Below are positions 2,982 through 30,266 of a stretch of 49,676 nucleotides of DNA, piece after piece. Within the stretch, counting starts at the first letter, position 1, and each line of letters opens with the position of its first letter. Made by a program: the position numbers and the translations under genes. The stretch is taken from assembly GCA_007126375.1 (NCBI GenBank), contig SLBI01000085.1, positions 1-49,676 on the forward strand. Reading direction: 5' to 3'. The notes under the pieces were generated by a model, which worked only from the letters and a program-made list of their open reading frames with translations, ran no database searches and was not told the origin of the DNA. Source of the stretch: Paracoccaceae bacterium (lineage in GTDB: Bacteria; Pseudomonadota; Alphaproteobacteria; Rhodobacterales; Rhodobacteraceae).

Positions 2982-3830
2982 CTAGAGCAGCCGGTCACCG
3001 ATCCGCAATGCATAGACATCGGTGCGCCGGTCGCGGCGCGGCATGATCCGCTCCGAGCGACGCTGGGCGGCACGGCTCAGGGCAGGGTCGATGACGGCCT
3101 GGGCGATTGCCTGATCCTCTTCGCCCAACGGCCCGGCCAGAAGATTGCCCCATGGATCGACGATCATCGAGGATCCCAGAAAGCGTTTGCCCGTCGCCGC
3201 GCCGGCCTGCGAGGCGCAGAGCAGGAACAGCTGGTTCAGATTGGCCTGAACGGCGGCGCCGCGGGCCTGGCCGATCATGCCGGTGGCATCGCGAGGCGCC
3301 GGGTCGAAGCCGCCGACCCAGGCGGTCGGCACCACGACGACCTCGGCATCCTGCAGCGCCAGTGCCCGCAACACCTCGACGAAACGCAGGTCGTAGCAGA
3401 CGCAGAGGCCGATCCGGCCCAGCGGGGTTTCGGCCACCGGCAGACCCAGATCGCCGGGGGTGAACACGAGCTGCTCGGCGTCGAAAAGATGCAGCTTTCG
3501 GTAGTGCAGCACCAGCCCGTCGGGGCCGACCAGCACCGCACTGTTGAACAGCGCCGTGCCCTGCCGCTCGCAGAAACCGCCGGCGATCAGCGCGTCATGC
3601 TCGGCTGCGACGGCCCGCCATGCCGCCAGGCTGGGGCCGTCAAGCGGTTCGGCGGCCGCCGCCAGCAGATCGGGATCGGTGGTGTAGCCGGAAACGGCGA
3701 GTTCCGGCAGCACGATCAGCCGGGCGCCGCTTCTGGCCGCAGCCTCGGTCTGCGCCACCGTCGCCGCGCGGTTCTCGGCGGCGGCGCCAGGGCGTCCGGT
3801 CATCTGCACGATCGCCGCGGCGAAGCTCAT
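2982..3830 (-). CDS. Carbon-nitrogen hydrolase (nitrilase superfamily)
   Basis: The 282-residue protein has the full Glu-Lys-Cys catalytic set of the nitrilase superfamily: Glu43 in LPELAVSGY, Lys112 in HYRKLHLF and Cys145 in GLCVCYDLRF. The length and the CYDLRF context fit the amidase branch (omega-amidase, N-carbamoyl amino acid amidohydrolase or Nit-like) rather than true nitrilases. Its ATG overlaps the stop of the upstream cupin by four bases. In this operon it most plausibly cleaves an open-chain amide or ureido compound released after ring opening. That is inference; the exact substrate is unknown. Confidence 0.9.
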   Translation of the reverse strand: MSFAAAIVQMTGRPGAAAENRAATVAQTEAAARSGARLIVLPELAVSGYTTDPDLLAAAAEPLDGPSLAAWRAVAAEHDALIAGGFCERQGTALFNSAVLVGPDGLVLHYRKLHLFDAEQLVFTPGDLGLPVAETPLGRIGLCVCYDLRFVEVLRALALQDAEVVVVPTAWVGGFDPAPRDATGMIGQARGAAVQANLNQLFLLCASQAGAATGKRFLGSSMIVDPWGNLLAGPLGEEDQAIAQAVIDPALSRAAQRRSERIMPRRDRRTDVYALRIGDRLL

Positions 3831-4225
3831 TGCGGGGCGTGCGCGTCCGCGGGCAGCGCGCCGACCGCCTTGAGCAGGGTCACATCGGCCGGGCAGGGGC
3901 CGCCGACGCTGATCAGCCCCTCGCCGCGGTCGGCACAGACCGCATGCTTGACGCCGATGGGCACATGCACCGCGCAGCCGGCATGAAAGGGCAGTGCGAG
4001 GTCGTGGTCATAGTCGCGCACCGTGCCACGGCCCGAGAGGATGAAGATGGTATCCTCCGACGCGGCATGGACATGGGGCACATTGGCCTCGCCGGGTTCG
4101 AGGCAGACATAGTTCATGTTGGCATACCAGGCCCCGGTGCCCGGCCAGATCACGAAGCGTGCGTCCTTCGAGATCAGCGGCAGGCGCAGGGTGGGGTGGT
4201 CGCGATGAAAGACACGGATCGCCAT
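3827..4225 (-). CDS. Cupin-domain protein with an intact metal site
   Basis: This is a 132-residue single-domain cupin. The start chosen is the ATG whose T is shared with the stop of the upstream cupin. A longer upstream frame exists but only shadows that neighbour. Cupin motif 1 is complete: Gly-x5-His-Val-His-x3-Glu in GEANVPHVHAASE (about residues 45-57). Motif 2, PIGVKH, supplies the last histidine. The protein also has VIWPGTGA near the start and GGPCPAD near the end, and both signatures recur in the adjacent cupin. It could be a small metalloenzyme or a ligand-binding partner. No specific function can be assigned. Confidence 0.85.
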   Translation of the reverse strand: MAIRVFHRDHPTLRLPLISKDARFVIWPGTGAWYANMNYVCLEPGEANVPHVHAASEDTIFILSGRGTVRDYDHDLALPFHAGCAVHVPIGVKHAVCADRGEGLISVGGPCPADVTLLKAVGALPADAHAPQ

Positions 4226-4620
4226 CACACGTTCTCCTTCGAGGCGAGACCGGCATAAAGCGCAGGGTCTGCCGGGCAGGATCCGCCAAGGACGGTCATC
4301 CCGGCGGCGGCATCGGCCTCGAGCCGGTAGCCGTCGCCGGCGTCGATGTGGATCATGTTGCCCTCGCCCAGCGCCTGTGCCGCCGCGTTGTCGAGATCGA
4401 CCACCCGGCCGGCGCCCGTTATCACGTAGTAGACGCAGTCCGCGGGGTGGCGCATGTCGATGCTGCTGGCGCCGGGGCCCAGTTCGATGAGCTGAAAGCT
4501 GCGATGGGCCGCGCCATTGCCGGGCCAGATGACCGCCCGCGCCTGGCCCTGCCCCCTGACCAGCGGCAGGGGCGGGCAATCGATCGCGCTGTCGATGACC
4601 CGGACGGTTTCGGTCGGCAT
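4225..4620 (-). CDS. Degenerate cupin-fold protein, paralogue of its neighbour
   Basis: The 131-residue protein aligns end to end with the next cupin and shares the VIWPG-GA and GG-CPAD signatures. Three of the four expected metal ligands are lost: the first His of HxH is Met, the Glu is Cys, and the last His is Tyr in GDGYRL. It is therefore probably not a metalloenzyme, and may be a structural or regulatory partner of the intact paralogue. The start ATG has a purine-rich AGGGGG ribosome-binding site at suitable spacing. The 43 bases between it and the molybdenum subunit hold a palindrome and could contain an internal promoter. Confidence 0.82.
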   Translation of the reverse strand: MPTETVRVIDSAIDCPPLPLVRGQGQARAVIWPGNGAAHRSFQLIELGPGASSIDMRHPADCVYYVITGAGRVVDLDNAAAQALGEGNMIHIDAGDGYRLEADAAAGMTVLGGSCPADPALYAGLASKENV

Positions 4621-4650: not shown

Positions 4651-4665
4651 GACTTTAATGTAGTC
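4651..4665 (-). promoter_or_regulatory. Short palindrome upstream of the cupin genes
   Basis: GACT and AGTC flank a seven-base centre (TTAATGT) in the AT-richest stretch of this region, just upstream of the cupin start. On the minus strand a TTGACT hexamer overlaps it, and TAAAAT follows closer to the gene, but the spacing between the two (24 bases) is too long for a standard promoter. It may be an operator or part of an internal promoter. The evidence is weak. Confidence 0.3.
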
Positions 4666-6973
4666 AAATTGTTTTGGGGGCGCAACGGCGCATTGGAACA
4701 TCGCCGCGGCTCCGGTCTGCCTGCAGCCAGCGGTGCAGCCGGTCGGGCGAGACCGGCAGCGCCCGTACGAGCCCCGGGCGGGCAAGGGCGTCGTCGATGG
4801 CGGCGGCGATCGCGGCTCCGGCGGCGGTGAGCCCGCCCTCGCCGGCACCTTTCACGCCCAGCGGGTTCTGCGGGCTGGGGGCATCCTCACGGATCAGCAC
4901 CTCGACTGCGGGCATCTCGGCCGCGCTGGGCATCAGGTAATCCGCGAGGCTGGCCGCCAGCGGCTGGCCGTCGGGAGAATAGACGAACTCCTCCATCAGC
5001 GCGCCGCCGATGCCTTGTGCCGCGGCTCCGACGATCTGGCCCTCGACGAGCATCGGATTGACCGCCCGGCCAACGTCATAGGCAACCGCGTAGCGCTCCA
5101 CCGTCACGCCGCAGGTCGCCCGGTCGACCCGGACCCGGGCGATGTGAACGCCATAGGGATAGTTCATGTGATCGGCGTCGAAGACGCCCTCGCTGAACAG
5201 CCCGTCGCCGGCATGCGCGGCGATCTGGGCGAGGCTCACGGTGGCGCCGCTGTCGGGCCGGATCACGGTGCCACCGCCGAGGCAAAGCGCCTCGGGCGGG
5301 CTCTGCAGCATCTCGGCGGCCACGGCCAGCGCCCGGTCGCGCAGGGTGCGGGCGGCGATCTGCATCGCCGTGCCTGCCATCACCGTGACCCGCGAGGCAA
5401 ACGCGCCCATGCCATAGCCGATCCGCGCGGTCTGTCCATGCACGACGCGGATGCCGGTGATCGGCAGGTCGAGCTCCTCTGCCGCGATCTGTGCGAGCAC
5501 GGTCTCGACCCCCTGGCCGATCGAGGCGACGCCGGTCACCGCCTCGACCGTGCCGTCGTCGAGCACCCGCAGATGCACCACGTCGCGCGGGCCGAGGCCG
5601 CTCTTCTCGACAAAGAGGGCGACGCCCACCCCAACCGCCTCGCCGGCGGCGCGGCGGGCGGCGGCCTCGGCGCGAAGACCTCCGAGATCGAAATGTGCCT
5701 CGGCCCGGTCGAGGAGATCGGCGTAGTCGCCGCTGTCATAGACGAGGGGCGTGCCCAGCGCGTCGATGCCGCGATCATGCGGCATCGACGCTGCCGGGAT
5801 CAGGTTGCGCCGGCGCACCGCCAGCGGATCGTGCCCCAGCCGCCGGGCGATCGCGTCCATCAGCCGCTCGCGCGCGAAAGTCGATTCGAAGCGGCCCGGG
5901 GCGCGATAGGTGCCGGCCGGGGTCTTGTTGGTCAGCCGGATGTGCCCGGTGGCCCGGTATGCAGGGATCAGATAGGGCCCCGGCAGCATCGCCGCCGAGA
6001 GATCGGTGACGGTGCCGCCATGGGTGCGGATATAGGCCCCCTGATCGGTGATGAACTCGGCCTCCAGACCGCGGAGGAAACCGTCGCCGTCCACCGCCGC
6101 GCGCAGCCGATAGCGCTGGTCACGGGCGTGGTTGGCGGCCATCAGATGCTCGCGCCGGTCCTCGACCCATTTCACCGGGCGGCCGAGGCGGAGTGCGGCG
6201 GCGCAGACCAGCACATCCTCGGGATAAAGCTCGCCGCGGATGCCGAAGCCACCGCCGACATGGCCCTCCGAGAGCTGGATCGTGGCCGGGTCGCGGCCCA
6301 GCATGCGGGCGATGGCGTCGCGGTTGTAGTGAGGCACCTTTGCGGCGCCGTGCAGCACCAGCGTTTCGCCCTCCCCTGGCACCGCGAGGGCGCCGCGCGT
6401 TTCCAGCGGCACGCCGCTGTGCCGGCCGACGCGAGCCTCGACCTCGATCACCGCATGCGCCCCGGCAAAGGCGGCGTCGAGATCGCCATAGGCCTTGGTC
6501 ACCGTTGCGGGTTCGCCCGACAGGGGCTCGTCTGTCGTGGGGAACGCGCCGGGCCCGTCGGCGGGATCGAGCCGGGGCGCCATCTCGTCGATGTCGCAGA
6601 ACACCGCCTCTGCCGCATCCTCGGCGGCATGCGCGCCGTCGGCGAAGACCAGCGCGACCGGCTCGCCGACGTAACGTACGAAGTCGCGTGCCAGCAGCGG
6701 CTGGCGATAGGCTTCCAGCCCGGCGATGCGGGTCATCCGGAAGTCCACGGGGGGCAGCGTGGCGATGTCGGCGGCGGTCCAGACCGCGACCACGCCCGGC
6801 ATCGCGGCGGCGTCCACGGTATCTATCTCGCCAAGCCGGCCCAATGCGACCGGCGCGCGGACCACCCGCATGTGCAGCATTCCGGGCACCTGGAGATCGG
6901 CCAGGAAACGGCCCTGTCCGGTCAGCAGTGGCGGGTCCTCGATCCGCGGCAGGGGCTTCCCGATCACCGTCAT
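4664..6973 (-). CDS. Xanthine dehydrogenase-family molybdopterin-binding subunit (second in operon)
   Basis: The 769-residue protein has the aldehyde oxidase/xanthine dehydrogenase layout: an N-terminal hammerhead domain, then the molybdopterin-binding region with VGGGFG (about 239-244), a GQG loop, and the base-catalyst glutamate in GAGEGG (Glu712). The loop where CO dehydrogenase has AYRCSFR reads TYRAPGRF, so it is not a true CoxL. The start ATG overlaps the stop of the 2Fe-2S gene by four bases. Together with the small subunits it should hydroxylate an N-heterocycle or aldehyde with water as oxygen donor. It has exactly the same length as the other Mo subunit of the operon. Confidence 0.93.
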   Translation of the reverse strand: MTVIGKPLPRIEDPPLLTGQGRFLADLQVPGMLHMRVVRAPVALGRLGEIDTVDAAAMPGVVAVWTAADIATLPPVDFRMTRIAGLEAYRQPLLARDFVRYVGEPVALVFADGAHAAEDAAEAVFCDIDEMAPRLDPADGPGAFPTTDEPLSGEPATVTKAYGDLDAAFAGAHAVIEVEARVGRHSGVPLETRGALAVPGEGETLVLHGAAKVPHYNRDAIARMLGRDPATIQLSEGHVGGGFGIRGELYPEDVLVCAAALRLGRPVKWVEDRREHLMAANHARDQRYRLRAAVDGDGFLRGLEAEFITDQGAYIRTHGGTVTDLSAAMLPGPYLIPAYRATGHIRLTNKTPAGTYRAPGRFESTFARERLMDAIARRLGHDPLAVRRRNLIPAASMPHDRGIDALGTPLVYDSGDYADLLDRAEAHFDLGGLRAEAAARRAAGEAVGVGVALFVEKSGLGPRDVVHLRVLDDGTVEAVTGVASIGQGVETVLAQIAAEELDLPITGIRVVHGQTARIGYGMGAFASRVTVMAGTAMQIAARTLRDRALAVAAEMLQSPPEALCLGGGTVIRPDSGATVSLAQIAAHAGDGLFSEGVFDADHMNYPYGVHIARVRVDRATCGVTVERYAVAYDVGRAVNPMLVEGQIVGAAAQGIGGALMEEFVYSPDGQPLAASLADYLMPSAAEMPAVEVLIREDAPSPQNPLGVKGAGEGGLTAAGAAIAAAIDDALARPGLVRALPVSPDRLHRWLQADRSRGDVPMRRCAPKTI

Positions 6974-7446
6974 CGGCGCATCTCGGACGCCGCGGCGCGC
7001 ACCGCCTTCACGATGTTCTGGTAGCCGGTGCAACGGCAGAGGTTCGACGACAGCGCCTCGCGCAGTCCGGCATCGTCGATGTCCGGGGTCTCTTCCAGAA
7101 CGCCTGCGGCGAGCATCAGGAAGCCCGGGGTGCAGAAGCCGCATTGCAGCCCGTGATGCTCCTGAAAGGCGCGCTGCAGCGGGTGCATCCGGTCGCCCTC
7201 GGCCAGCCCCTCGACGGTGCGGACGGTGCGGCCTTCCGCCTGCACCGCGAACATCAGGCAGGCGCGCACCGCGGCGCCGTCCACCAGCACCGTGCAGGCG
7301 CCGCAGACACCGTGCTCGCAGCCCAGATGCGTGCCGGTCAGCCGGCATTCCTCGCGCAGGGCATCGGCCAGCGTGCAGCGCGGCTCTACCGCGATGGCAT
7401 GCTCGGTGCCGTTCACGGTCAAGACGATGCGGCGTTTCTCGGTCAT
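6970..7446 (-). CDS. (2Fe-2S)-binding subunit of a molybdenum hydroxylase
   Basis: The 158-residue protein carries both iron-sulfur clusters of the family. Cys43, 48, 51 and 63 form the plant-ferredoxin-type site (GCEHGVCGAC), and Cys102, 105, 137 and 139 form the helical-bundle site (CGFCTPGF, CRCTGY). It relays electrons from the Mo subunit to FAD. It sits between the two molybdenum subunits, its start shares one base with the stop of the upstream one, and its stop overlaps the start of the downstream one by four bases. It is the only 2Fe-2S subunit in this operon. Confidence 0.94.
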   Translation of the reverse strand: MTEKRRIVLTVNGTEHAIAVEPRCTLADALREECRLTGTHLGCEHGVCGACTVLVDGAAVRACLMFAVQAEGRTVRTVEGLAEGDRMHPLQRAFQEHHGLQCGFCTPGFLMLAAGVLEETPDIDDAGLREALSSNLCRCTGYQNIVKAVRAAASEMRR

Positions 7447-9755
7447 CACGTTCCTCCGGTTGCGGCGCGGATCGCCGCGCGGATGCGCTCCGGCGTGGCC
7501 GGAACCCTCTCGATTGCGGCGCCCAGCGGCGCCAGCGCGTCGTTGATGGCATTGAGCACGGCGGCCGGCGCACCGATGGTGCCGCCTTCGCCCACGCCCT
7601 TGGCGCGGGTTTCGCTGGCGTCGGTCCGGGTTTCCAGATGGGCGATCTCGATATCCGGGATCTCGGCCAGCGTCGGCACGAGGTAGTCTGCCAAAGAAGC
7701 GGTCAGCAGATTGCCGTCGGCATCGTAGATCACCTCCTCGTAGAGCGCATTGGCGATGCCCTGGGCGACGCCGCCGTGGATCTGGCCGTCGACGATCATC
7801 GGATTGACGAGCAGTCCCGCATCCTCGACCACGAAGAAGCGCTCGATCACGACCTGGCCGGTGTCGATGTCCACCTCCACCAGTGCGATATGGCAGGCAT
7901 TCGAGAAGGTGCCGGCGGGATCGTAGCTTGCGGTCTGGCGGAGCCCGCCCTCGGCTTCGGGAAAGCGGTGGCTCTGGTGATAGGCGGCGCGGGCGATCTC
8001 GCCGATGTCGAGCACCCGGTTCGACGCCTCCGACCGCGCGGTGCCGTTTTCCAGCGTGACGGAGTCGGGCTCGACCTCCAGCATTCGCGCGGCAACGCCG
8101 CGCAGGCGGGTGGCGATGCCGGCCGAGGCGCGCTTGCAGGCCCCGCCCGAGATCACCATGGAGCGGCTGGCGAAGGTGCCCCAGCCGTAGGGCACCGCGT
8201 CGGTGTCGCCCGAAATCACCCGCACCCGGTCGGGGGTGAGGCCCATCTCGTCGGCCACCAGCTGCCCGAGGCTGGTCTTGAGCCCCTGCCCGTGCGGCGA
8301 GGCGCCGATGCGCAGTTCGACATGGCCCGAGGGGTCCATGCTGCATTCCACCGTTTCGTAGCCCGGCACGATCTCCATCGCGCGGGCGGCGAAGGCGGGG
8401 GTGCCATAGCCTGCGCGTTCGCTGAAGACCGAGAGGCCGAGGCCGAGATGCCGCCCCTCGGCCCGCGCCGCCTGCTGCCGCGCGCGGAAACCCGGCGCAT
8501 CGGCGATCTCGAGCGCGAGGTCCATCGCCGCGACATAGCTGCCCTCGTCATGGACGAGCCCGGTGGGCGAACGGTGCGGAAAGGCGGTGACGAGGTTGCG
8601 CCGCCGGATCTCCTCGGGCGCGAGACCGCAGGCAGAGGCGGCGCGCTCCATCAGCCGCTCCATCGCCAGCGTCAGGTTGGGCCGCGACACGCCGCGGTAA
8701 GGCGCCATCATGCAGCTGTTGGTGGCCACCCCGCGCGAGCGCACGCCGTATTCCGGCACCCGATAGGGGCCGGGTAGCTCGGCGAAGGCCATCAGCGGCT
8801 CCACACCGCAGGTGACCGGATAGCAGGAGAAGGCGCCGACATCGCTGCGCAGATCGGCGTCGAGGCCCAGCAGCCGGCCCTCGGCGTCGAATGCGCCGCG
8901 CACGGTGAAGGCCTGGTCGCGGCCATGGGCGGCAGCGAGGAAGTTCTCGCGCCGGTCCTCGATCCAGGCGACATCGGTGCGCAGGTGGCGGGCGAGCCAG
9001 ACCAGCGCGGGGTATTCCGGAAACAGCGACATCTTCTGGCCGAAGCCGCCGCCGACATCGGGCGCGATGACCCGCAGATCCGCCTCGCGCATGCCCAGCG
9101 TGTCGGCGATGCCGGTGCGCAGCATCTGCGGCATCTGCACCGAGGCGTGCAACGTCACCCGCCCGGTGGCGGCATCGAAGCGGGCGACGCCGCCGCGGCC
9201 CTCCAGCGGCATCGCCGACTGCCGGCCCGAGCGCAGATCGACCTCCAGCACATGGGCGGCGGCAGCGAAGGCGGCGTCGAGCCCCGGACTGCGCATCTGC
9301 CCTTCCACAAGGACATTGCCGGGCGCCTCGGGGTGCACGGGGCGGGCGTCCGGGGCGAGCGCGGCGTCGAGGCCGATGACCGGATCCTCCGGCTCGATGT
9401 CGAGAAAAACCTGCTCGGCCAGATCCTCGGCCGCGGCGGCGGTTTCGGCCACCACCATCGCCACCGCCTGACCCGAGAAATGCACCCGGTCCGCGGCGAG
9501 CACCGGCTGGCCGACGGCGACATAGTCGGGACGGAAGAGCCGCGGCCGGATCGGGCGTATATCGCCCATCTCGGCCAGCGTATAGACCGTCACCCCCTCG
9601 GGTGCCTCGATGCCGAGGATGCGGCCGCAGGCCAGCGGGCTGCGCAGGAAGGAAACGCGCAGCGCGCCGGCGGCGAGATCGGCGGTGAAGCCGCCCTGAC
9701 CGCGCAGCAGCGCCGGATCCTCGATCCGCGGGAGCGACCGACCGATCCAGTTCAT
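7446..9755 (-). CDS. Xanthine dehydrogenase-family molybdopterin-binding subunit (first in operon)
   Basis: The 769-residue catalytic subunit contains the hammerhead region followed by the molybdenum-cofactor domains. Visible motifs are VGGGFGQK (about 234-241), HGQG, and the catalytic glutamate in KGVGEGG (Glu723). The active-site loop reads PYRGVSRP, not the CO dehydrogenase form. It follows the FAD gene with a four-base overlap and precedes the 2Fe-2S gene with a one-base overlap. Its N-terminus (IGRSLPRIEDPALLRGQG) closely resembles that of the second Mo subunit, which suggests an old duplication. The substrate is unknown; N-heteroaromatic hydroxylation is the family norm. Confidence 0.93.
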   Translation of the reverse strand: MNWIGRSLPRIEDPALLRGQGGFTADLAAGALRVSFLRSPLACGRILGIEAPEGVTVYTLAEMGDIRPIRPRLFRPDYVAVGQPVLAADRVHFSGQAVAMVVAETAAAAEDLAEQVFLDIEPEDPVIGLDAALAPDARPVHPEAPGNVLVEGQMRSPGLDAAFAAAAHVLEVDLRSGRQSAMPLEGRGGVARFDAATGRVTLHASVQMPQMLRTGIADTLGMREADLRVIAPDVGGGFGQKMSLFPEYPALVWLARHLRTDVAWIEDRRENFLAAAHGRDQAFTVRGAFDAEGRLLGLDADLRSDVGAFSCYPVTCGVEPLMAFAELPGPYRVPEYGVRSRGVATNSCMMAPYRGVSRPNLTLAMERLMERAASACGLAPEEIRRRNLVTAFPHRSPTGLVHDEGSYVAAMDLALEIADAPGFRARQQAARAEGRHLGLGLSVFSERAGYGTPAFAARAMEIVPGYETVECSMDPSGHVELRIGASPHGQGLKTSLGQLVADEMGLTPDRVRVISGDTDAVPYGWGTFASRSMVISGGACKRASAGIATRLRGVAARMLEVEPDSVTLENGTARSEASNRVLDIGEIARAAYHQSHRFPEAEGGLRQTASYDPAGTFSNACHIALVEVDIDTGQVVIERFFVVEDAGLLVNPMIVDGQIHGGVAQGIANALYEEVIYDADGNLLTASLADYLVPTLAEIPDIEIAHLETRTDASETRAKGVGEGGTIGAPAAVLNAINDALAPLGAAIERVPATPERIRAAIRAATGGT

Positions 9756-10633
9756 GCCGCAGCGTCCTGCGGCAGCGACTGCAGCGCCTGCCGCAGCGCC
9801 CGTTCCAGCACCACGCCGCACAGATCGCGCCGGTAAGCGGCCGAGGCGTGGATGTCGTCCGAGACCTCGACCAGCGCTCCGGCACCGGCAGCAACCTCGC
9901 GCAGCAGGTCCGGGCCGGGCAACTCGCCCCGCAACCCCGCCTCCAGAGTCGTCAGCCGCAGCGGCCGGCCGGCGACGCTGCCCAGCGCCAGCCGCGCCGC
10001 GGTGATGCGGCCGTCGCGCCCGATCTGCAGCGCGGCGCCAGCCATAGCCAGCGCATAGTCTCCGGCCCGGCGGGCGAATTCGTAGAATCCGACATGCCAG
10101 TCATTGCCCAACAGGGGCAAACGCACCTCGGTCAGCAATTCGTCCGGGGCGGCGTCGGTGGTGAAGCTCGCACGGAAGAACCCGTCCGCCGGCACGCTGC
10201 GGACGCCGCGCTGCGAGTGCATCTCGACCTCGGCGTCGAGCAGAACCGCGATCAGGCACCATTCCGCGGCCGGGTCGGCATGGGCGAGGCTGCCGCCGAA
10301 GGTGCCGCGCTGGCGGATCGGATAGTGCGCGATATACGGCACCGTCCGCGCAAGCAGGCGGCCCAGCGGCCCGTCGGCGACCGGCAGGTGAAAGGCCGCA
10401 TGGCGCACCAGAGCGCCGATGCGGAGCCTGTCGCCGTCGGCCTGCACCCGGTCGAGTCCAGGCAGGGCGTTGGCATCGAGCAGCACCGCGGGGCGCAACA
10501 GGCGGAAGTTCATCGCCGGCACAAGGCTCTGCCCGCCGGCCAGCACGCGGGCCTCCGGGCCGTGCTCGGCCAGCCGCGCAAGCATCTCGGCGGTATCGGC
10601 CGGCCGGTGATAGTCGAAGGCGGCGCATTTCAT
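9752..10633 (-). CDS. FAD-binding subunit of a molybdenum hydroxylase (CoxM/CutM-like)
   Basis: The 293-residue protein has the two FAD-contact motifs of the family, AGGQSL (32-37) and TFGGSLAHAD (111-120). The ATG at the start of MKCAAFDYHRP was chosen because it has a GGGGAGA ribosome-binding site and matches where family members begin; the frame stays open further upstream. It is the first gene of the operon. The divergent XRE-cupin gene lies 188 bp away and is the likely regulator. Confidence 0.92.
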   Translation of the reverse strand: MKCAAFDYHRPADTAEMLARLAEHGPEARVLAGGQSLVPAMNFRLLRPAVLLDANALPGLDRVQADGDRLRIGALVRHAAFHLPVADGPLGRLLARTVPYIAHYPIRQRGTFGGSLAHADPAAEWCLIAVLLDAEVEMHSQRGVRSVPADGFFRASFTTDAAPDELLTEVRLPLLGNDWHVGFYEFARRAGDYALAMAGAALQIGRDGRITAARLALGSVAGRPLRLTTLEAGLRGELPGPDLLREVAAGAGALVEVSDDIHASAAYRRDLCGVVLERALRQALQSLPQDAAA

Positions 10634-10690: not shown

Positions 10691-10821
10691 AGGACATTGC
10701 ATGGCCCCCGGCGTCGCACTGGCCTTGGTGGCCATGGTTTGCTAGAAGCTGTGTCATTTGCAAGCAGGGCCTGTGGCGCTCCGTCGCCCGGAGAGGCCGC
10801 AGCGAGAGCGAGACATGTCCC

Positions 10822-11424
10822 GTGAACAGGCAGACGGCCCTGAAGTCTTCCGACGCCTTCGCAGAAACCGCCGCCAGCACCATCGCCGCGATCGGCGCCC
10901 GCATCCGCGAGTTGCGGCTGGAGCGGTCGATGACGCTGCAGGCGCTGGCCGAGGCGACCGGTCTCAGCCCGTCGCTGATCAGCGTGGTGGAGCGCGGACG
11001 TTCCTCGCCCTCGATCGGCTCGCTGATCGTGATCGCCGAGGCGCTGGATGTGCCGATGTCCGAGCTGATCGCGGTGCGGGTCCGCTCGGAGGAGGACATC
11101 GTGGTGCGCCCGGAGTCGCATGAGGTGATCGAGACCGCCCGCCATGTCGTCCGCCGGCTGATCCGCGAGGACCGCAGCCGCGGTGTCAGCGTGGCGCTGA
11201 ACGAATACGCGCCCCACACCGGCAGTGCCGAGCGCCCGATCACCCATGAGGGGTTCGAATACGGCTATGTGCTGGAGGGCATCCTGACGGTGGAGGTGGA
11301 CGGCGTGGCGCATGTGCTGGAGGAGGGCGACCTGATCGCCTACAGTTCGCAGCGACGGCACCGGATCTGGAACCATGGCGAGGCCCGGGTGCGCACGCTC
11401 TGGTTCAACTTCGGCAGGAGCTGA
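10822..11424 (+). CDS. XRE-type transcriptional regulator with a C-terminal cupin sensor domain
   Basis: A 200-residue regulator is read from a GTG start with a GAGAGCGAG purine stretch upstream. The frame continues 62 codons further 5-prime, but that part has no family similarity I can see. Residues about 24-82 form an XRE helix-turn-helix (IRELRLERSMTLQALAEATGL followed by SLISVVERG). Residues about 125-195 form a small-molecule-binding cupin (EYGYVLEGILTVEVDG). Proteins of this build commonly regulate adjacent catabolic operons. Its position opposite the FAD-Mo-FeS-Mo operon makes that operon the likely target. Confidence 0.9.
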   Translation: MNRQTALKSSDAFAETAASTIAAIGARIRELRLERSMTLQALAEATGLSPSLISVVERGRSSPSIGSLIVIAEALDVPMSELIAVRVRSEEDIVVRPESHEVIETARHVVRRLIREDRSRGVSVALNEYAPHTGSAERPITHEGFEYGYVLEGILTVEVDGVAHVLEEGDLIAYSSQRRHRIWNHGEARVRTLWFNFGRS

Positions 11425-11450: not shown

Positions 11451-12749
11451 TCATCCGTACCATGTGACCAGCCCCGGAAACAGGATCACCAGTCCGATCA
11501 CGATCGCATCGCAGATCAGGAAGGGGATGCAGGCGGTGTAGATCTCGCGCATCCCGGTGCCGGGCGGCGCCACCCCCTTCATCACGAACAGCAGCAGCCC
11601 GAAGGGCGGCGTGGTCAGCGCCATCTGCAGGTTGATCAGCATCAGTATGCCGAACCAGATCGGATCGAATCCGAGCTGTACCACCACCGGCACGAGGATC
11701 GGCAGGGTGATCAGCATGATGGCGATCTGTTCCATGAAGGTGCCGAGCACCAGCACCGCCAGCATGATGACCAGGATCACCACGATCGGCGCCACCGGCA
11801 ACCCGGTGACCCAGTCGATCAGCCCGCGTGTGGCGCCGGTGAAGGCGAGGATCTGGCTGAATCCGACCGCGCCCACCAGGATCGCGAAACACATGGCGCT
11901 GACGAGGATTGTGCCGCGCAGCGCCGCCACCATCGCCTCGCGGCTCAGCGCGCGATAGGCGGCGACGATCAGGACCGTGCCGAGGCAGCCCATCGCGGCG
12001 GATTCGGTGGGCGTGGCGATTCCCAGGACGATCAGCCCGGTGACCAGAAACACGATCAGCCCGACCGGAAGCAGATAGAGCGCGCAGGCCCGCAGCACTT
12101 CGGGCCAGGGCGGGCGGTGCACCTCGGCCGGTGGCGCCAGGCCTGGCTGCAGCTTGCAGCGCAGCACGATGTAGCCGATGTAGAGCGCCGCCATGATCAG
12201 CCCCGGCAGCATCGCGCCGATCAGGATCTTGCTGATCGACATTCCCCCCAGCGACGCGAGGATCACGCCCAGCGAACTGGGCGGGATCATCATCGCCAGA
12301 CCGCCACTGGCCATGATCGGCCCGATCGACATCGACCGGGCATAACCCCGCCGGTCCATGTCGGGCAGCATCATCGTCCCGAGGATCGCCGTGTTCGCCA
12401 TGGTCGAGCCGCTCAGCGTGGAGAACACCGCGCCGGCAAAGACCGTCAGCACCGCCTGCCGGCCGACCACCCGACCGAGCAGCATGTCGAGGGTGCGCAG
12501 CATCTTCTCGGCCAGCTTCGAATGCCACAGCAACTCGCCCATCAGGATGAACAGCGGGATCGGCACCAGTGTGAAGGAGGCAACCGAGGAGTACATCGAG
12601 TTGGCGATCTGCTGGAACGCCATGCCGCCGCCCTGCAGGATCAGGATCCCCACGACGATCACGATCAGAAAGGCGAAGGCGACCGGAACCCCGATCAGGA
12701 GCAGCGCGGCGAGGCCCGACAGGATGTAGAGGAACGGCTCCCACCACAT
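11451..12749 (-). CDS. TRAP transporter large permease (DctM family)
   Basis: The 432-residue protein is almost entirely hydrophobic, with about a dozen membrane segments, and shows DctM-type sequence such as MIPPSSLGVILASLGGMSISKI and GTFMEQIAIMLITLPIL. It forms the ion-coupled translocation subunit. It follows the small permease by 2 bp and is the end of the Rieske-DctPQM gene run. It meets the XRE-cupin gene tail to tail with only 26 bp between the stops. Confidence 0.93.
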   Translation of the reverse strand: MWWEPFLYILSGLAALLLIGVPVAFAFLIVIVVGILILQGGGMAFQQIANSMYSSVASFTLVPIPLFILMGELLWHSKLAEKMLRTLDMLLGRVVGRQAVLTVFAGAVFSTLSGSTMANTAILGTMMLPDMDRRGYARSMSIGPIMASGGLAMMIPPSSLGVILASLGGMSISKILIGAMLPGLIMAALYIGYIVLRCKLQPGLAPPAEVHRPPWPEVLRACALYLLPVGLIVFLVTGLIVLGIATPTESAAMGCLGTVLIVAAYRALSREAMVAALRGTILVSAMCFAILVGAVGFSQILAFTGATRGLIDWVTGLPVAPIVVILVIMLAVLVLGTFMEQIAIMLITLPILVPVVVQLGFDPIWFGILMLINLQMALTTPPFGLLLFVMKGVAPPGTGMREIYTACIPFLICDAIVIGLVILFPGLVTWYG

Positions 12750-12751
12750 CC

Positions 12752-13249
12752 TCAGCGCGGCCCGTCGCTGCGCGTGAAGGCCGCCCGGGCAAGTTCGATC
12801 GCGGTGAGCGCGAGCCCGACGGCGATCAGTGCCGAGAAGACATAGCGGGGGGCGGAATGGATCGACACGGTCATCGAACCGCGGGCGAACTGGGTCATCG
12901 CGGTCAGTGCCGCGAAATGGGCGCAGGCGGCGCAGATGCCGGCAGCGACCAGATTGCCCAGTGCCGTCACCCAGCGTCGCGGCCCGTCCGAAAGGGCATT
13001 GAGCAGCAGGTCGATGCGGACATGTCCGTTCTGCCGCACCAGCCAGGCCATGGCGAGAAATGTCATCGCCACCAGGCCGTATTCGGAATAGTCGATCGGC
13101 CAGCCCAGCGGGCGCCGGAAGGCATAGCGTGCGATCACGTCCACGCAGACCGACAGCGCGATCAGAAGTATGATCGCCGCGGCCACAGCCGCAAGCGCCC
13201 CGACAAACCAGTCATAGCCACGCAGCAGCGCGCGCAGGACCTTGCTCAT
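12752..13249 (-). CDS. TRAP transporter small permease (DctQ family)
   Basis: The 165-residue membrane protein has four predicted hydrophobic helices. The first is close to the N-terminus (VGALAAVAAAIILLIALSV) and is followed by the family-typical DVIARYAFRRPLGWPIDYSEY region. It pairs with the large permease directly downstream. It is separated from the binding-protein gene by 110 bp containing a strong hairpin. Confidence 0.9.
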   Translation of the reverse strand: MSKVLRALLRGYDWFVGALAAVAAAIILLIALSVCVDVIARYAFRRPLGWPIDYSEYGLVAMTFLAMAWLVRQNGHVRIDLLLNALSDGPRRWVTALGNLVAAGICAACAHFAALTAMTQFARGSMTVSIHSAPRYVFSALIAVGLALTAIELARAAFTRSDGPR

Positions 13250-13311
13250 GTGCCCCCCGGATGATCGGTGCCGGACGATCGGTCGTTGCCGGCCACGCTG
13301 CGCCGGAACGG

Positions 13312-13340
13312 CGGCAGAGGCGGCTCGGCCGCCCCTGCCG
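13312..13340 (-). terminator. Strong stem-loop between the TRAP binding-protein and permease genes
   Basis: On the transcribed strand this folds as CGGCAG-G-GGCGGC, loop CGA, GCCGCC-U-CUGCCG, a 13-pair stem with one G-U wobble, about 20 bases after the binding-protein stop. There is no U run. It may be a partial terminator or an mRNA-stabilising element that lets the periplasmic protein be made in excess of the permeases. Confidence 0.55.
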
Positions 13341-13359
13341 GCAGAACGATGCGCCGCAC

Positions 13360-14358
13360 CTACTGCGGTGTCGAGAGCTCCCGCAGACGTTCTGCCACCT
13401 CCTCGCCGGCGCGGCCGGCGACATCGGCCCAGCCGGCGTCATAGGCGCCCGCGGTAAAGCGTTCGGCTTCCGCCTCGGGGAAGGTCAGGAAGGTGACGCC
13501 GGCATCGGCCAGCGCCTCGTTGTCCTCGGCGTTGACCTCGGCGAAGTAGCTCACGCTCCACTGCTCCACCTCCTGCGCGATGCGCTCGAGATCGGCCTGG
13601 ATGTCCTCGGGCAGGCTGCGCCAGCGGGCCCCGTTCATCAGGATGTTGCTGTTCACGGAGAAGAACGGGTGCTCGATCACATGCCGCATCACCTCGTGCC
13701 AGCCATAGCTGACCGTGCCGCAATATGGCCAGCCGAAGCCGTCCACGGTGCCGCGCTCCAGAGCGGTATAGATCTCGCCCGGCGGCATCACCACGGCGCT
13801 GCCGCCGAAGTGCTCCACCACCGCCCGGGTCGCCCCGGACACGCGCATCCGCTTGCCCGAGAAGTCGCCGCTGTCCATCTCCTGGTTGACGTAGAGGCGG
13901 AAGGCCTGACCGGCCGCGCCGCCGAGCATGGCCAGGAACTCGACATCCGCCTTGTCACGATGGATCTCGCGCATCAGGTCATAATAGCCCGAGGCGCGCA
14001 GCGCCGCCGGGTCCATCTGCACGTAGAGCTGACTGAGCGCCTCGGGGATCTGGCCGTCGTAATAGGAGGTTACGCCGAGGATCACATCGACCACCCCGTT
14101 CTGCAGTGCCTCGAACTGGTCGAAGGGGCCGATCACGTCGCCATGACCGAGATAGTCGATCTGCACCCGGCCCTCCATCTCGGCGTTGACCCGGTCGCGG
14201 AACTCGAAGATCGGCGTCGTCCAGCAGTCCGAGGCAGGCCAGGGCGAGACCGCGCGCAGGGTGATCGGGTCTGCCACCGCCATCGATGGCAGGCCGACGG
14301 CCAGAGCAAGAATGGCAGTGGCGGCAAGGCGCCGCCCGGGGTCAGCGATGTCGGACAT
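13360..14358 (-). CDS. TRAP transporter periplasmic substrate-binding protein (DctP family)
   Basis: The protein has 332 residues from the ATG that follows a good AGGAGG site. A signal peptide covers about the first 30 residues (LAATAILALAVGLPSMAVA). The mature part has DctP features, including GKRMRVSG, whose arginine usually binds the carboxylate of the ligand, and a WPYCGTVSYGWHEV segment. The ligand is therefore probably an organic acid. The gene lies 133 bp downstream of the Rieske oxygenase gene, which suggests the transporter imports that enzyme's substrate. Confidence 0.92.
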   Translation of the reverse strand: MSDIADPGRRLAATAILALAVGLPSMAVADPITLRAVSPWPASDCWTTPIFEFRDRVNAEMEGRVQIDYLGHGDVIGPFDQFEALQNGVVDVILGVTSYYDGQIPEALSQLYVQMDPAALRASGYYDLMREIHRDKADVEFLAMLGGAAGQAFRLYVNQEMDSGDFSGKRMRVSGATRAVVEHFGGSAVVMPPGEIYTALERGTVDGFGWPYCGTVSYGWHEVMRHVIEHPFFSVNSNILMNGARWRSLPEDIQADLERIAQEVEQWSVSYFAEVNAEDNEALADAGVTFLTFPEAEAERFTAGAYDAGWADVAGRAGEEVAERLRELSTPQ

Positions 14359-14491
14359 GAGAGAGAACCTCCTCTGTATTGTTTCCGCCGCCCCGCAGAT
14401 GGGCCGCAGATGCCGGGGCGCCCCGCCGCCGAAGGGCAGACCCGGGCGCCTTTGACAGCCTACAGGACATTTCAACCATGTGCTACGGTTT

Positions 14492-15541
14492 TTAATGTGA
14501 CTGTTTCCTCGGGGCCGGTGCACGGGCCGGCAGTTCCGGTCCTGCTGCATCGTTGGCAGGACGGGCGTAATCGTGCATGAGCCGTCGATAGGCCATCGCG
14601 GCCGCATCCGGGACCAGCACGTAAAGCTCCTCGCGCAGATCGGGCGGGATCAGCTCGGGCCGCTGCGCCTCGACGATGACGCGGTCCTGTTCCATGATGG
14701 TGTCGAAGCCCGCGGCGAAATCGGCGTCCTGCGCCTGCAGCGAATGATTCCGCCCGACGAAGGCGTAGATGCGGGTGCGCACCGCATCCATCGGCTGCGC
14801 GATGAAGGTCAGGATGGTGACGTCGCCGGCCCGCGATCCGCCCGACTCGGACCATGTCACCCCGCCGTCGGGGTCGATCACCCGCTTGCGGTCATGCACG
14901 ACGAACGGGAAGTGCAGCGTGTATTCCCGCCGCAGCTTCCCATCCTCGTAGACATATGCAAGCCCGTCCGCGGTGGGTTCGACCTCGTATGGCTTGATCT
15001 GCGGGCCATCGGCCAGTTCCGTGTAACCCTTGTGCACGAAATTGAAATGCGAGAAGTCGAGCACGTTCTCGACCACCCGCCAGGCCGCCGCGTTCCACTC
15101 GTATGTGCCAGCGCAGAACACCCTGTAGCCCGGGTCGGTCCAGGCATCGTCGGGCCAGCCTGGAAACGGGGCTTCGGGCTCTTCGAGGGCGACCCACACA
15201 AGGCCGTATTCCTCGCGCACCGGATAGGCCCATGCGCGGGCGCGTTTCGGAATCACCGCGCCTTCGGGCAGGGCGGGAATGTGCACGCAGGCGCCGGTTC
15301 GGTCATAGGCCCAGCCGTGATAGGGGCACACCAGCTTGCCGTCGTCGATGCGCCCCTGCGACAGCGCTGCACCGCGGTGGATGCAAAGGTCGCGGAAGAC
15401 CGAGGGCGCACCGTCGACCCGGAAGGCCACAAGGGCCTCGCCAAGCAGGCTGAAGGCTGCGGGATCCTCGCCGATCTCGTCCGAGCGTGCGATCGGGTGC
15501 CAGAAGCGCCGCAGGTCGTGTGTGGTGTCTTGCTGGATCAT
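14492..15541 (-). CDS. Rieske non-heme iron oxygenase, aromatic ring-hydroxylating or O-demethylase type
   Basis: This is a 349-residue oxygenase subunit. The Rieske cluster motif is complete: Cys53, His55 (CIHRGAAL), Cys72 and His75 (CPYHGW). The mononuclear iron site is visible as Asp162, His165 and His170 in LDFSHFNFVHKG. Single-component oxygenases of this length include vanillate O-demethylase and phthalate-type enzymes. No reductase gene is adjacent, so one must come from elsewhere. The ATG at MIQQDTTH was chosen for its AAGGAGG ribosome-binding site. The gene faces a divergent IclR regulator and runs into the TRAP genes. Confidence 0.92.
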   Translation of the reverse strand: MIQQDTTHDLRRFWHPIARSDEIGEDPAAFSLLGEALVAFRVDGAPSVFRDLCIHRGAALSQGRIDDGKLVCPYHGWAYDRTGACVHIPALPEGAVIPKRARAWAYPVREEYGLVWVALEEPEAPFPGWPDDAWTDPGYRVFCAGTYEWNAAAWRVVENVLDFSHFNFVHKGYTELADGPQIKPYEVEPTADGLAYVYEDGKLRREYTLHFPFVVHDRKRVIDPDGGVTWSESGGSRAGDVTILTFIAQPMDAVRTRIYAFVGRNHSLQAQDADFAAGFDTIMEQDRVIVEAQRPELIPPDLREELYVLVPDAAAMAYRRLMHDYARPANDAAGPELPARAPAPRKQSH

Positions 15542-15578
15542 GCCGGGCCTCCTTGCTGCGTGCAATTTCTATCACATT

Positions 15579-16653: not shown

Positions 16654-17433
16654 TCAGTCGCGCTGCTGGTACGAGCCGGAGAGATTGCGAAACGTCTCCT
16701 CCAGCGCATCGATCACCGCGGCGATGGTAGCATGCCCCATTTCGGCACTCGCCTTCGTCGGATCCCCGAAGATCGCGGCATGCCCGGCTGCCGGGCGGGG
16801 GCGGCGGGTATAGGTGCGGGTGGGGTTGGTGGGCGCGACGAGATCCCAGCCGACCGGCCCCCAGGTCGCGTTGGCGAGGCGCTCCATCTTCACCAGTTCG
16901 GGCCGCACCGCGAGCTGGAACGAGGTTTCCATCTCGCAGCCATGCCCCATCCCGCCCTCGACCGACTTGCGCATGGCGTGAATCTGCCCGGCCGCCGGTT
17001 CCCAGTAGCTGACCGCCGAGACCTTGAAGTCGTGGTCGCCGTCGAGCGTGTCGATCAGGTGCCGCGCCACCTGGTCGTTGGCGGTGCCGCTGGGCCGGTT
17101 GCCGTTGAGCAGGATCAGATGCCCGAACCCCTGCCGGATCAGCGCCGCCCCGATCTCGTAGAGCATTGCCTGAAAGGTCGGGATCGACAGCGAGATGGTG
17201 CCGGGGAAATGCTCGAAGGTCATCGATACGCCATAGGCTACCGGCGGCGCGACCAGCGCGCCCAGCCGTTCCGCCAGCATAACGGCGATATGCTCGGCCT
17301 GATGGGTGTCGGTATCGACCGGCATGTGCGGGCCGTGCGCCTCGGTGGCGCCAACGGGCAGGATGACGGGGCGGCCGGCGGCGATGGCCTCGGCGATCTC
17401 CATCTGGGTCATCTCGGACAGGCGGACGATCAT
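16654..17433 (-). CDS. Creatininase-family protein with an altered metal site
   Basis: The 259-residue protein has the N-terminal creatininase signature (GATEAHGPHMPVDTD: Glu31, His33, Asp42) and the late GCEMETS motif (Glu169). The central NGHGGN or NGHYEN motif, whose His is a metal ligand in characterised members, reads NGNRPSG (residues 110-116). One metal site may therefore be lost or rebuilt. The ATG follows a GCAGGAG ribosome-binding site, 40 bp after hyuB. By family it should be an amidohydrolase acting on a cyclic or linear amide, possibly on the HyuAB product, but the altered motif makes this uncertain. Confidence 0.85.
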   Translation of the reverse strand: MIVRLSEMTQMEIAEAIAAGRPVILPVGATEAHGPHMPVDTDTHQAEHIAVMLAERLGALVAPPVAYGVSMTFEHFPGTISLSIPTFQAMLYEIGAALIRQGFGHLILLNGNRPSGTANDQVARHLIDTLDGDHDFKVSAVSYWEPAAGQIHAMRKSVEGGMGHGCEMETSFQLAVRPELVKMERLANATWGPVGWDLVAPTNPTRTYTRRPRPAAGHAAIFGDPTKASAEMGHATIAAVIDALEETFRNLSGSYQQRD

Positions 17434-17473
17434 GCGGGCACTCCTGCGCTGTGGCCTCGAGGCGTGGCGGGGA

Positions 17474-19378
17474 TCACTCGGCGGCCATGTGATCGACCGC
17501 ATCCCAGCCGGCATCGGGATCGGCCCAGCCCTCGGGAAAACGGACCATCCCGCGGGCCTTGAGCGCTGCGTGGGCGGAGCCGCGGTCGAACATCGGCGGG
17601 CGGCCGCGGCTGGTAGCCATGCGGGCGCGCCGGTCGGCGGTGGCGGCCGGGTCGTGGCGCCAGTGCCGGCCCTCCAGCCGGACGTCGACCCCGTAGATTT
17701 CCCGCGCTGCGGTTTCGGTGATCAGTCCGCATTGCAGGTCGTAGACAACACGCGCAGGCTCGCGCAGCAGAGGATCGCCCCAGCCGCCGCCGCCGCTGGT
17801 GACCACCCGGACGCGCTCGCCCGGGCGCACGGTGACGGTGTCGGACATGCCGGGATGAACCGTCTCGGTGCCGTCCACGTCGATGACGGAGATGCCGTAG
17901 CTGCCCCCGGCCAGGCCACCGTTGACCCCATAGCAGCCGAGGATGGAGCGGTCGGCGTTCGAGATCAGCCGGCATTCCACAAGCGCGCGGATGCGCTTGT
18001 CATAGCCGAAGCCGCCGCGGCGGAAGCCGGCGCCACCCGAATCCCGCTTCAATGCCAGTTGCTCCACCAGGATCGGATAGCGTGTTTCCGAGAACTCCGC
18101 CGGCAGATTGCGCGAATTCGGCACGATGTGCACCACGTCCGAGCCGTCGGCCCAGGGCCGGCCGGGGCCGCCGCCGCCCAGCACCTCGCGGAACAGGAAG
18201 AACTCCTCGCGCGTCTGACCGCCGGTGAGGCCCCAGATCCGGATGGTCTCGTGATCCGCCGGCATCCGGCCGCCGGTAGCCTTGGACAGACAGGCCGCGA
18301 ACACGCCCAGCGAGCGCAGCATCAGGAAAAAGCGCATGCCGGTCGGCTTGCCGTAGCGCGGCGTGATCAGTGTGCCCTTGTCGGGGAACTTCACGTCGAT
18401 CACTTCGAGCACGCCCTCGTTCGAGTCGATCTCGGCGGCGCGCTCGGGGCTGGCGGCCAGCGAGCGCAGCACCGGGGCAAGCCATTTGCGGAAATACCGC
18501 CCCTCCACCTCGTCAAGCGCCCAGTTGATCGGGCCCTTGGCCTCGGGGTCGGTGCCGGTGAAGTCGAGCAGGATCTTCTCGGGCGTCTTGGTCATCGTCA
18601 CGCGCAGCGCATGCAGCTTGTCGGGCTCGACCCCGTCGGCCTCGATGTAATCCTCGTAGGAATAGACGCCATCGACGATATTGGGGAGGATCTCGCGCCG
18701 GAAGATCTCGGCAGTGTTGGCGAGAATCTGCTCGAACGCCGCCTCCAGCGTCTCCACCCCGTAACGTTCCGCCAGCGCGACGATACGGCGCGAGCCCAGC
18801 GTCGCCGCGCCGATCTCGGCATCGAGATCTCCGGCGAGGTGGTCCTCCAGCCGCGAGTTGCGGGTGATGATGCGGAACGCCGCCTGGTTCAGCCGGCCGC
18901 GGTCGTAGAGCTTGATCGGCGGGATCAGCACGCCTTCCATCCAGCTGTCGGTGGCGTGGACCGGCAGAGAGCCGGGCACCGACCCGCCGATGTCGTCGTG
19001 ATGACCGAAGACCTGGCTGAAGCCGATCAGCCGCTCGCCGTGGAAGATCGGCAGCGTGGTGCACAGATCCGGCACATGGCCGATGCCACCGCAGGAGTTG
19101 TAGGGATCGTTCCAGAAGAACACGTCGCCGGGGTGGATGTCGTCCGCGCCGAAGTATTCGAACACCGGCTCGACGATGGCGGAATAGGACCGTCCCGTCA
19201 GCTTGCGCCCCTTCGCGTCGAACAGCGCCACGCGATAATCGTGCTGGTCGCGGATCATCGGCGAGCGCGCGGTGCGTTCGACCGCCGCCTCGATCTCCAG
19301 TTCGGCGGCGCGGATGGTGCCGTGGATCACTTCGAGTTCGATCGGGCCGAGCGCCCGGGGCTTGCGCTGAACGTTCAC
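17474..19378 (-). CDS. hyuB: Hydantoinase B/oxoprolinase-family subunit
   Basis: The protein has 634 residues from a GTG start that overlaps the hyuA stop (GTGA). Features of the HyuB family are the early LEVIHGTIRAAELEIE region, the FFWNDPYNSCGGIGHVPD segment and the glycine-rich VTSGGGGWGDP near the C-terminus. With HyuA it forms an ATP-dependent enzyme that opens cyclic amides. Family members include N-methylhydantoinase, 5-oxoprolinase, caprolactamase and acetone/acetophenone carboxylases. The last group usually has a third small subunit, which is absent here, so a ring-opening hydrolase is favoured. Confidence 0.92.
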   Translation of the reverse strand: MNVQRKPRALGPIELEVIHGTIRAAELEIEAAVERTARSPMIRDQHDYRVALFDAKGRKLTGRSYSAIVEPVFEYFGADDIHPGDVFFWNDPYNSCGGIGHVPDLCTTLPIFHGERLIGFSQVFGHHDDIGGSVPGSLPVHATDSWMEGVLIPPIKLYDRGRLNQAAFRIITRNSRLEDHLAGDLDAEIGAATLGSRRIVALAERYGVETLEAAFEQILANTAEIFRREILPNIVDGVYSYEDYIEADGVEPDKLHALRVTMTKTPEKILLDFTGTDPEAKGPINWALDEVEGRYFRKWLAPVLRSLAASPERAAEIDSNEGVLEVIDVKFPDKGTLITPRYGKPTGMRFFLMLRSLGVFAACLSKATGGRMPADHETIRIWGLTGGQTREEFFLFREVLGGGGPGRPWADGSDVVHIVPNSRNLPAEFSETRYPILVEQLALKRDSGGAGFRRGGFGYDKRIRALVECRLISNADRSILGCYGVNGGLAGGSYGISVIDVDGTETVHPGMSDTVTVRPGERVRVVTSGGGGWGDPLLREPARVVYDLQCGLITETAAREIYGVDVRLEGRHWRHDPAATADRRARMATSRGRPPMFDRGSAHAALKARGMVRFPEGWADPDAGWDAVDHMAAE

Positions 19379-28700: not shown

Positions 28701-28712
28701 GCGACGTTCCCT

Positions 28713-30118: not shown

Positions 30119-30240
30119 CCCGTCCTCCCTGTCGGCCCGTTGCCGGGCTGAAACGCGGTGCCGGATCGACACCCTGGCTTGGGCGCCGGTTGCCCCGGCG
30201 ATGCTTGCGGGCGCTGCGGAGGTCGCCGCCCGAACCCAGT

Positions 30241-30266
30241 AATATCCACTCAGCGGATACGGTATC
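30241..30266 (-). promoter_or_regulatory. Operator-like site upstream of the second molybdenum hydroxylase operon
   Basis: TATCC and GGATA flank CTCAG in a 17-bp palindrome (30243-30259) with one mismatched pair. It overlaps a second, perfect 11-bp palindrome, GATACGGTATC (30256-30266). The whole block recurs in front of hyuA with 20 of 26 bases identical and the same spacing. It lies about 120 bp before the GTG of the FAD gene and about 190 bp before the divergent promoter. A shared regulator for both promoters is the simplest reading. Confidence 0.6.

Follow-up and report, generated by a model that had tools for sequence, protein, structure and literature searches.

One FAD/2Fe-2S subunit pair encoded with two divergent molybdenum catalytic subunits in a conserved bacterial operon

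Introduction

Molybdenum hydroxylases of the xanthine oxidase family (L/M/S type) usually combine one large catalytic subunit (L) with one pair of flavin adenine dinucleotide (FAD) and 2Fe-2S (FeS) subunits (M and S). An exception has been described in the archaeon Sulfolobus tokodaii, where N-terminal sequencing of the purified enzymes GAOR2 and GAOR3 revealed two L subunits with one common M/S pair; the L genes are remote from those for M and S, and both enzymes oxidize glyceraldehyde while differing in substrate specificity (PMC4726530). The principle of sharing is thus already known. Here, we describe a four-gene operon in a stretch of 49,676 nucleotides from a Paracoccaceae bacterium (contig SLBI01000085.1, the whole of which we call the window), in which one FAD gene and one FeS gene are encoded with two different, complete molybdenum catalytic subunits, Mo1 and Mo2 (the heads).

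With a probability of roughly 0.65, we propose that the FAD and FeS subunits form one electron relay that docks to either head, giving two homotypic enzymes that would act on successive intermediates of one nitrogen heterocycle. The window is part of an assembly of 401 contigs that is 75.7% complete.

The four-gene unit in the window

The four genes are encoded on the minus strand, in the order FAD, Mo1, FeS, Mo2:

9752-10633, minus: FAD subunit, 293 residues, with FAD_binding_5 and CO_deh_flav_C domains
7446-9755, minus: Mo1 catalytic subunit, 769 residues, loop PYRGVSRP at residue 352; nearest to the large subunit of quinoline 2-oxidoreductase
6970-7446, minus: FeS subunit, 158 residues, cysteines at 43, 48, 51, 63, 102, 105, 137 and 139, kept in 24 of 24 aligned sequences
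4664-6973, minus: Mo2 catalytic subunit, 769 residues, loop TYRAPGRF at residue 355; nearest to the large subunit of 6-hydroxypseudooxynicotine dehydrogenase

Consecutive genes overlap by 4 bases (FAD/Mo1), 1 base (Mo1/FeS) and 4 bases (FeS/Mo2), and all four frames run without an internal stop. An earlier, sequence-only reading of this DNA had reported this order, overlaps of one to four bases, and two subunits of 769 residues with VGGGFG and GxGE motifs and different active-site loops, all of which we found to be correct. That reading had also taken one catalytic subunit per FAD/FeS pair to be typical of the family; this is indeed the usual composition, although S. tokodaii provides a recorded case of one M/S pair shared by two L subunits (PMC4726530).

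The Pfam domains of all four proteins match expectation, and they place the unit in the xanthine oxidase family: both heads carry MoCoBD_1/MoCoBD_2 domains and the glutamate of the GxGE motif, the FAD subunit carries FAD_binding_5, and the eight cysteines of the FeS subunit form the pattern for two 2Fe-2S clusters. The unit departs from the usual composition, which is not essential for membership of the family, in having two full heads in one operon. Mo1 and Mo2 are 38% identical over 720 aligned residues, and their nearest solved relatives differ: the large subunit of 1t3q for Mo1 (E 2e-147) and that of 7dqx for Mo2 (E 1e-168), both azaarene hydroxylases. The nearest solved chain to the FeS subunit is the small subunit of 1t3q, and those nearest to the FAD subunit are 7dqx_B and then 1t3q_C.

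Two other family names were tried and rejected. Both heads miss the NCBIfam cut-off for glyceraldDH_alpha (532 and 536 of 790 bits), which excludes the name glyceraldehyde dehydrogenase. For aerobic carbon monoxide (CO) dehydrogenase of form I, the loop cysteine (YACSFR in CoxL, 8uem) aligns to glycine in Mo1 and alanine in Mo2, and the curated cut-offs are missed for TIGR02416 (422 and 375 of 991 bits) and for NF040766 (542 and 555 of 950).

Conservation of gene order and host range

Species genomes were scanned with Mo2, keeping the best 80 of 125 loci, and further loci were added via Mo1 in other genomes. Since a search based on Mo2 biases co-occurrence, the ten loci detected via Mo1 but not Mo2 serve as a less biased set. 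Gene order was read by a script using score and distance thresholds, and repeats of one place under several locus identifiers were removed before counting.

The sequence-only reading had proposed looking for the same gene order in other genomes, and it proved to be common among the loci that encode Mo1. There are 39 distinct Mo1 loci, and 32 have the order FAD-Mo1-FeS-Mo2 (28 complete, three running to a contig end and one with Mo2 in two open reading frames), a recurrence which argues that the arrangement is not due to chance. The remainder comprise three Mo1-Mo2 strings lacking small subunits, one FAD-Mo1-FeS string and three loci cut by contig ends. All ten of the Mo1-only detections have the four-gene order (G467, G588, G679, G772, G558, G896, G901, G1114, G948 and G946), with Mo2 running off the contig in G467 and G901. 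Across loci, some junctions are gaps of up to 40 bases instead of overlaps; the gene starts behind these lengths were chosen by script, and single junction values may be off. Two contig ends of one genome (L049 and L143, both from G512) are probably the two parts of one further four-gene locus.

Complete Mo1 orthologs score above 900 bits and cut copies 767 and 504 bits, while the next Mo subunits in the same searches score about 610 bits; one Embleya protein, at 694 bits, lies in between. Their occurrence is sporadic. Two of 295 genomes in the window's family have one (counted above 1000 bits, its own included), as do five of 385 in its class (again with its own), three of 39 in the family of G588 (G588 included) and nine of 195 in the genus of G490, a Bradyrhizobium, six of these nine having already been found via Mo2. 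In a sample of the phylum, Mo2 was matched at E 1e-120 in three of 199 other genomes, none above 428 bits. In the plasmid collection, all 179 records matched at E 1e-100 are less than 60% identical to Mo1.

According to record titles, hosts include Bradyrhizobium, Bosea, Methylobacterium, Chelatococcus, Bauldia, Methylobrevis, Acetobacteraceae and Acidimicrobiia, and the four-gene order spans Alphaproteobacteria and metagenome-assembled genomes (MAGs) titled Acidimicrobiia or Actinobacteria. The MAG titles 'Bifidobacterium breve' (L052) and 'Devosia equisanguinis' (L037) are doubtful for their contigs; L052 groups with the actinobacterial loci.

Among the open-licence papers listed, as covered by titles and abstract openings, we found no description of a bacterial operon encoding two heads and one relay. 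Within the reach of these searches, a four-gene operon of this kind, conserved in bacteria and with heads that have diverged, is new relative to the literature found.

Both heads are intact

The window and 23 other loci were aligned, giving 24 rows; the alignment excludes loci added later (L167, L169-L171) and those that are cut or broken (L035, L060, L097, L105 and L168). The active-site loop is PYRGV[SA]RP in every Mo1 and TYRAPGR[FY] in every Mo2 (24 of 24 each), and the GxGE glutamate is likewise kept in all 24 copies of both heads, as are the eight cysteines of the FeS subunit. Near the active site, each head has invariant positions of its own, e.g. Ser310, Pro313 and Trp525 in Mo1 and Arg316, His318 and Thr321 in Mo2. 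The ratio of nonsynonymous to synonymous substitution rates (dN/dS) in seven close pairs, one of which (L144-L145) is a Mo1-Mo2 pair of loci lacking the relay, is 0.08-0.11 for Mo1 and 0.07-0.13 for Mo2. Mo1 and Mo2 are both under purifying selection.

These observations bear on the alternative in which one of the heads is decaying after a duplication, or relies on an FeS partner of its own elsewhere in the genome. Decay of one head, which the sequence-only reading had named as an outcome that would count against it, was not found: the active-site residues are complete in 24 of 24 rows and dN/dS is low in both heads. What the alternative has in its favor is that Mo1 is absent from L029 and L036, and that Mo2 lies in two open reading frames in the draft genome of L097. 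The question of a separate FeS partner is taken up below.

One FeS lineage with either head

Trees were quick LG+G4 reconstructions made before L167-L171 were added, and carry no bootstrap. In the FeS tree (100 rows), the FeS subunits of 26 loci with the four-gene order group with those of all 12 FAD-FeS-Mo2 loci and of L141, whose order is FAD-Mo1-FeS, in a single clade of 47 rows with a value of 93 in the SH-like approximate likelihood-ratio test (SH-aLRT). The clade also contains an Embleya operon of the form FAD-Mo1like-FeS (L161). One-head operons with either head thus use the same FeS lineage, and each head can probably pair with that FeS. The suggestion of the sequence-only reading that the small subunits are common to both heads gains genomic backing from this result, together with the presence of one FeS gene per four-gene operon.

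A search of 33 genomes with the window's FeS subunit looked for a dedicated partner elsewhere, and all statements on it concern the matches listed. In four-gene genomes the best match is the operon's own FeS. Among the matches listed, second copies above 63% identity occur only in G511 (71% and 66%) and G588 (67%); one belongs to a further FAD-FeS-Mo2 operon, one to L141 (FAD-Mo1-FeS) and one to a string of FeS and Mo2 genes. In the four-gene genomes, no listed FeS above 63% identity therefore lies outside the operons of this lineage. Operon positions were assigned to a minority of the weaker matches (at or below 63%), which gives the alternative of a private FeS partner some room. Taken with the intact active sites and low dN/dS, we consider it highly improbable that either head is a decaying copy or depends on a different FeS.

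Variants lacking one head can be placed in the Mo2 tree. L029 (Bradyrhizobium sp. CSA207, FAD-FeS-Mo2) is nested among four-gene Bradyrhizobium loci, and L036 (a Burkholderiales MAG, FAD-FeS-Mo2) groups with L049 and the Mo1-Mo2 loci; both genomes were searched, and no Mo1 ortholog was found elsewhere in either. From these positions, Mo1 has probably been lost at least twice.

Variants lacking the relay are found in G505, G510 and G534, which have a Mo1-Mo2 string with no FAD or FeS gene. Their FeS most like that of the window (69-70%, among the matches listed) is in a separate FAD-FeS-Mo2' operon, and either this operon or genes nearby could donate the relay. One-head and no-relay variants are both expected if the two heads are each able to dock to the same kind of relay. 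Convergent to one Mo1-Mo2 pair of this kind, L041:10173-12486 encodes a CoxE-like VWA protein and an AAA ATPase, to which we would assign a maturation role.

More widely among the fetched loci, 58 gene strings have a single gene each for Mo, FeS and FAD subunits, and a Mo subunit often stands alone (49 strings, many of them from loci that are short or cut). Two Mo2-type subunits (L042:7956-10253 and L067:6470-8791) have no adjoining FAD or FeS gene; another lone Mo subunit adjoins them, as does a protein which, in our view, resembles UbiD-type decarboxylases. Relay subunits may be borrowed more commonly within this family.

The one-head operons also bear on a second alternative, in which the heads join in a mixed complex with a heterodimeric core, Mo1-Mo2-(FeS)2-(FAD)2, an asymmetric particle whose two sites would hydroxylate one ring twice. 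In its favor is the correlation of evolutionary distances between Mo1 and Mo2 (0.955), the highest of the six subunit pairs, although Mo1 and Mo2 are also the longest proteins and so have the least noisy distances. Mo1 and Mo2 also remain adjacent in three genomes whose string lacks both small-subunit genes (L041, L046 and L100). Among described enzymes, the contacts between L and L' in GAOR2 are wide and include the loop Phe546-Asp553 (PMC4726530), and Kdh, the enzyme of structure 7dqx, was crystallized as a dimer of heterotrimers (PMC8305194). At the position of this GAOR2 contact loop, Mo1 and Mo2 are unlike each other, and among Mo2 proteins the loop is of variable length, which speaks against a mixed core but is not decisive. 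Also against it, this FeS lineage accompanies Mo2 without Mo1 in 12 loci (FAD-FeS-Mo2) and Mo1 without Mo2 in L141 (FAD-Mo1-FeS). The one-head operons favor separate enzymes, and we regard a mixed core as unlikely.

A proposed relay for two enzymes

We suggest that the FeS and FAD subunits dock as a pair to Mo1 or to Mo2, most likely giving two homotypic enzymes, (Mo1-FeS-FAD)2 and (Mo2-FeS-FAD)2. Each head would hydroxylate a carbon next to a ring nitrogen, with electrons leaving through FeS and then FAD. The two enzymes would act on two successive intermediates of one N-heterocycle, after which hydrolases from neighboring genes would open the oxidized ring. Sharing of the relay in the cell is likely, judging from gene content, and two successive oxidation steps on one ring are possible. 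Like the sharing itself, the substrate class, which of the reactions comes first and the oligomeric state are what we infer from the conserved operon and its variants.

A third alternative accepts a common FAD/FeS pool and differs in what it is for: the heads would be isozymes switched by substrate, serving two growth substrates and not two steps. This is the arrangement of GAOR2 and GAOR3, whose substrate specificities differ (PMC4726530), and one-head operons are known for both heads. Set against this, the heads are encoded in one gene string with ends that overlap or nearly touch, an arrangement that fits heads needed at the same time better than it fits a switch. We consider the isozyme explanation doubtful.

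Several points weigh against two enzymes sharing one relay on one pathway. The case for sharing is made from gene content, the support of the FeS clade is moderate, and the second-FeS check covers the matches listed. The distance correlation and the adjacency of Mo1 and Mo2 in strings that lack small subunits would fit a mixed complex as well. The absence of Mo1 from L029 and L036 means that its step can be dispensable or replaced. The no-relay genomes have other candidate partners close by: in G505 and G510, about 3.5 kb separates Mo1-Mo2 from a divergent FeS-Mo-FAD operon whose FeS belongs to another lineage, and in G534 the neighbor, at about 5 kb, is a Mo-FAD pair. Finally, seven of the 20 four-gene loci with named records are MAGs, including all the actinobacterial ones.

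Gene neighbors and possible substrates

Neighbors were counted in 25 chosen loci (21 four-gene loci, L029, L036, L144 and L146), and the counts are lower bounds. The commonest are two small cupins (at least 16 loci each), a PF04199 cyclase (at least 16), an XRE-cupin regulator (at least 13) and CoxG (at least 10), followed by a BMP-type binding protein (at least seven), a nitrilase (at least six) and an isochorismatase (at least five). Those beside the unit in the window are:

4225-4620, minus: small cupin A, a frequent neighbor
3827-4225, minus: small cupin B, a frequent neighbor (start read from the sequence; queries used 3827-4219)
2982-3830, minus: carbon-nitrogen hydrolase of the nitrilase superfamily, a neighbor in some loci
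2301-2918, minus: CoxG-like protein, a neighbor in some loci
1406-2254, minus: PF04199 cyclase-family protein, a frequent neighbor
10822-11424, plus: XRE-type regulator with a cupin domain, divergent from the FAD gene (start uncertain; query 10816-11424)

At the NCBIfam cut-offs, none of these neighbors (cyclase, cupins, CoxG, nitrilase, isochorismatase and binding protein) received a name, and the cyclase had no solved relative at E 1e-10. The nitrilase and isochorismatase weakly resemble enzymes of carbamoyl and ureide compounds. The cluster may be read as one for uptake of an N-heterocycle and its stepwise oxidation to a cyclic amide or ureide, followed by hydrolysis. The open-licence literature yielded no molybdenum-linked isonicotinate or citrazinate paper.

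The window has further genes of related kinds. A TRAP transporter (DctPQM) and a VanA-type Rieske oxygenase (11451-15565, minus) adjoin the four-gene unit. A second Mo hydroxylase operon (26313-30268, minus) encodes FAD3, FeS3 (near 28731-29189) and Mo3; at 1019 bits, Mo3 exceeds the cut-off of 950 bits for NCBIfam CODH_aero_grp5, and a BMP-type ABC transporter adjoins. A close relative of Mo3 (1327 bits) lies beside the same type of transporter in Bradyrhizobium sp. CSA207 (L158). Genes for a creatininase-family protein and hydantoinase A/B (16654-21441, minus) lie between this second operon and the four-gene unit; beside other four-gene loci, the matches listed include a single weak one to hydantoinase A (L053).

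Comparison with known systems

The operon family shows that bacteria can keep one electron-relay pair long-term with two divergent catalytic subunits in one operon. Its variants, having both heads, either alone, or heads and no relay, are natural test cases for the surfaces that allow catalytic parts of molybdenum hydroxylases to be exchanged. Annotation that expects one large subunit per enzyme would miss one oxidation step of the pathway. Pairing of two heads with one relay may have arisen more than once, given two other layouts with one TYRGPGRF head each: FAD-FeS-Mo-Mo in L063:7986-12035 (Rokuibacteriota), where the second head is cut by the contig end, and Mo-Mo-FAD-FeS in L102:5584-11115 (Acetobacteraceae).

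In the entry for nicotinate dehydrogenase of Eubacterium barkeri (PDB 3hrd), single FeS and FAD chains likewise accompany two polypeptides that bind Mo. These have 425 and 330 residues and each corresponds to one half of Mo1 or Mo2, so that together they make up one split catalytic subunit, whereas the heads of the window are each complete. A split subunit of this type is excluded here, as each head matches full-length large subunits.

Quinoline 2-oxidoreductase (Qor, PDB 1t3q), the nearest solved relative of Mo1, has a single catalytic subunit, unlike the operon in the window, and its loop reads AYRGVG where that of Mo1 reads PYRGVS (PMC8305194). 6-Hydroxypseudooxynicotine dehydrogenase (Kdh, PDB 7dqx), which performs the second ring hydroxylation in nicotine breakdown (PMC8305194), also differs in having one catalytic subunit. 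Mo2 keeps the equivalents of Kdh Phe269, Arg383 and Glu748 but not those of the substrate residues Glu345 and Trp551, which are Gly/Ala at 319 and Phe/Tyr at 525, and so is not a Kdh by this measure. Since cofactor and catalytic residues of KdhL are retained and substrate residues are not, the substrate of Mo2 differs from that of Kdh.

The closest parallel in composition is with GAOR2 and GAOR3 as described in PMC4726530, where two different Mo subunits likewise go with one FAD/FeS pair, a relation which gene content and the one-head operons with the same FeS lineage suggest for our operon. Unlike the archaeal enzymes of that account, the two heads are encoded in one bacterial operon with the pair, and they are nearer to azaarene hydroxylases.

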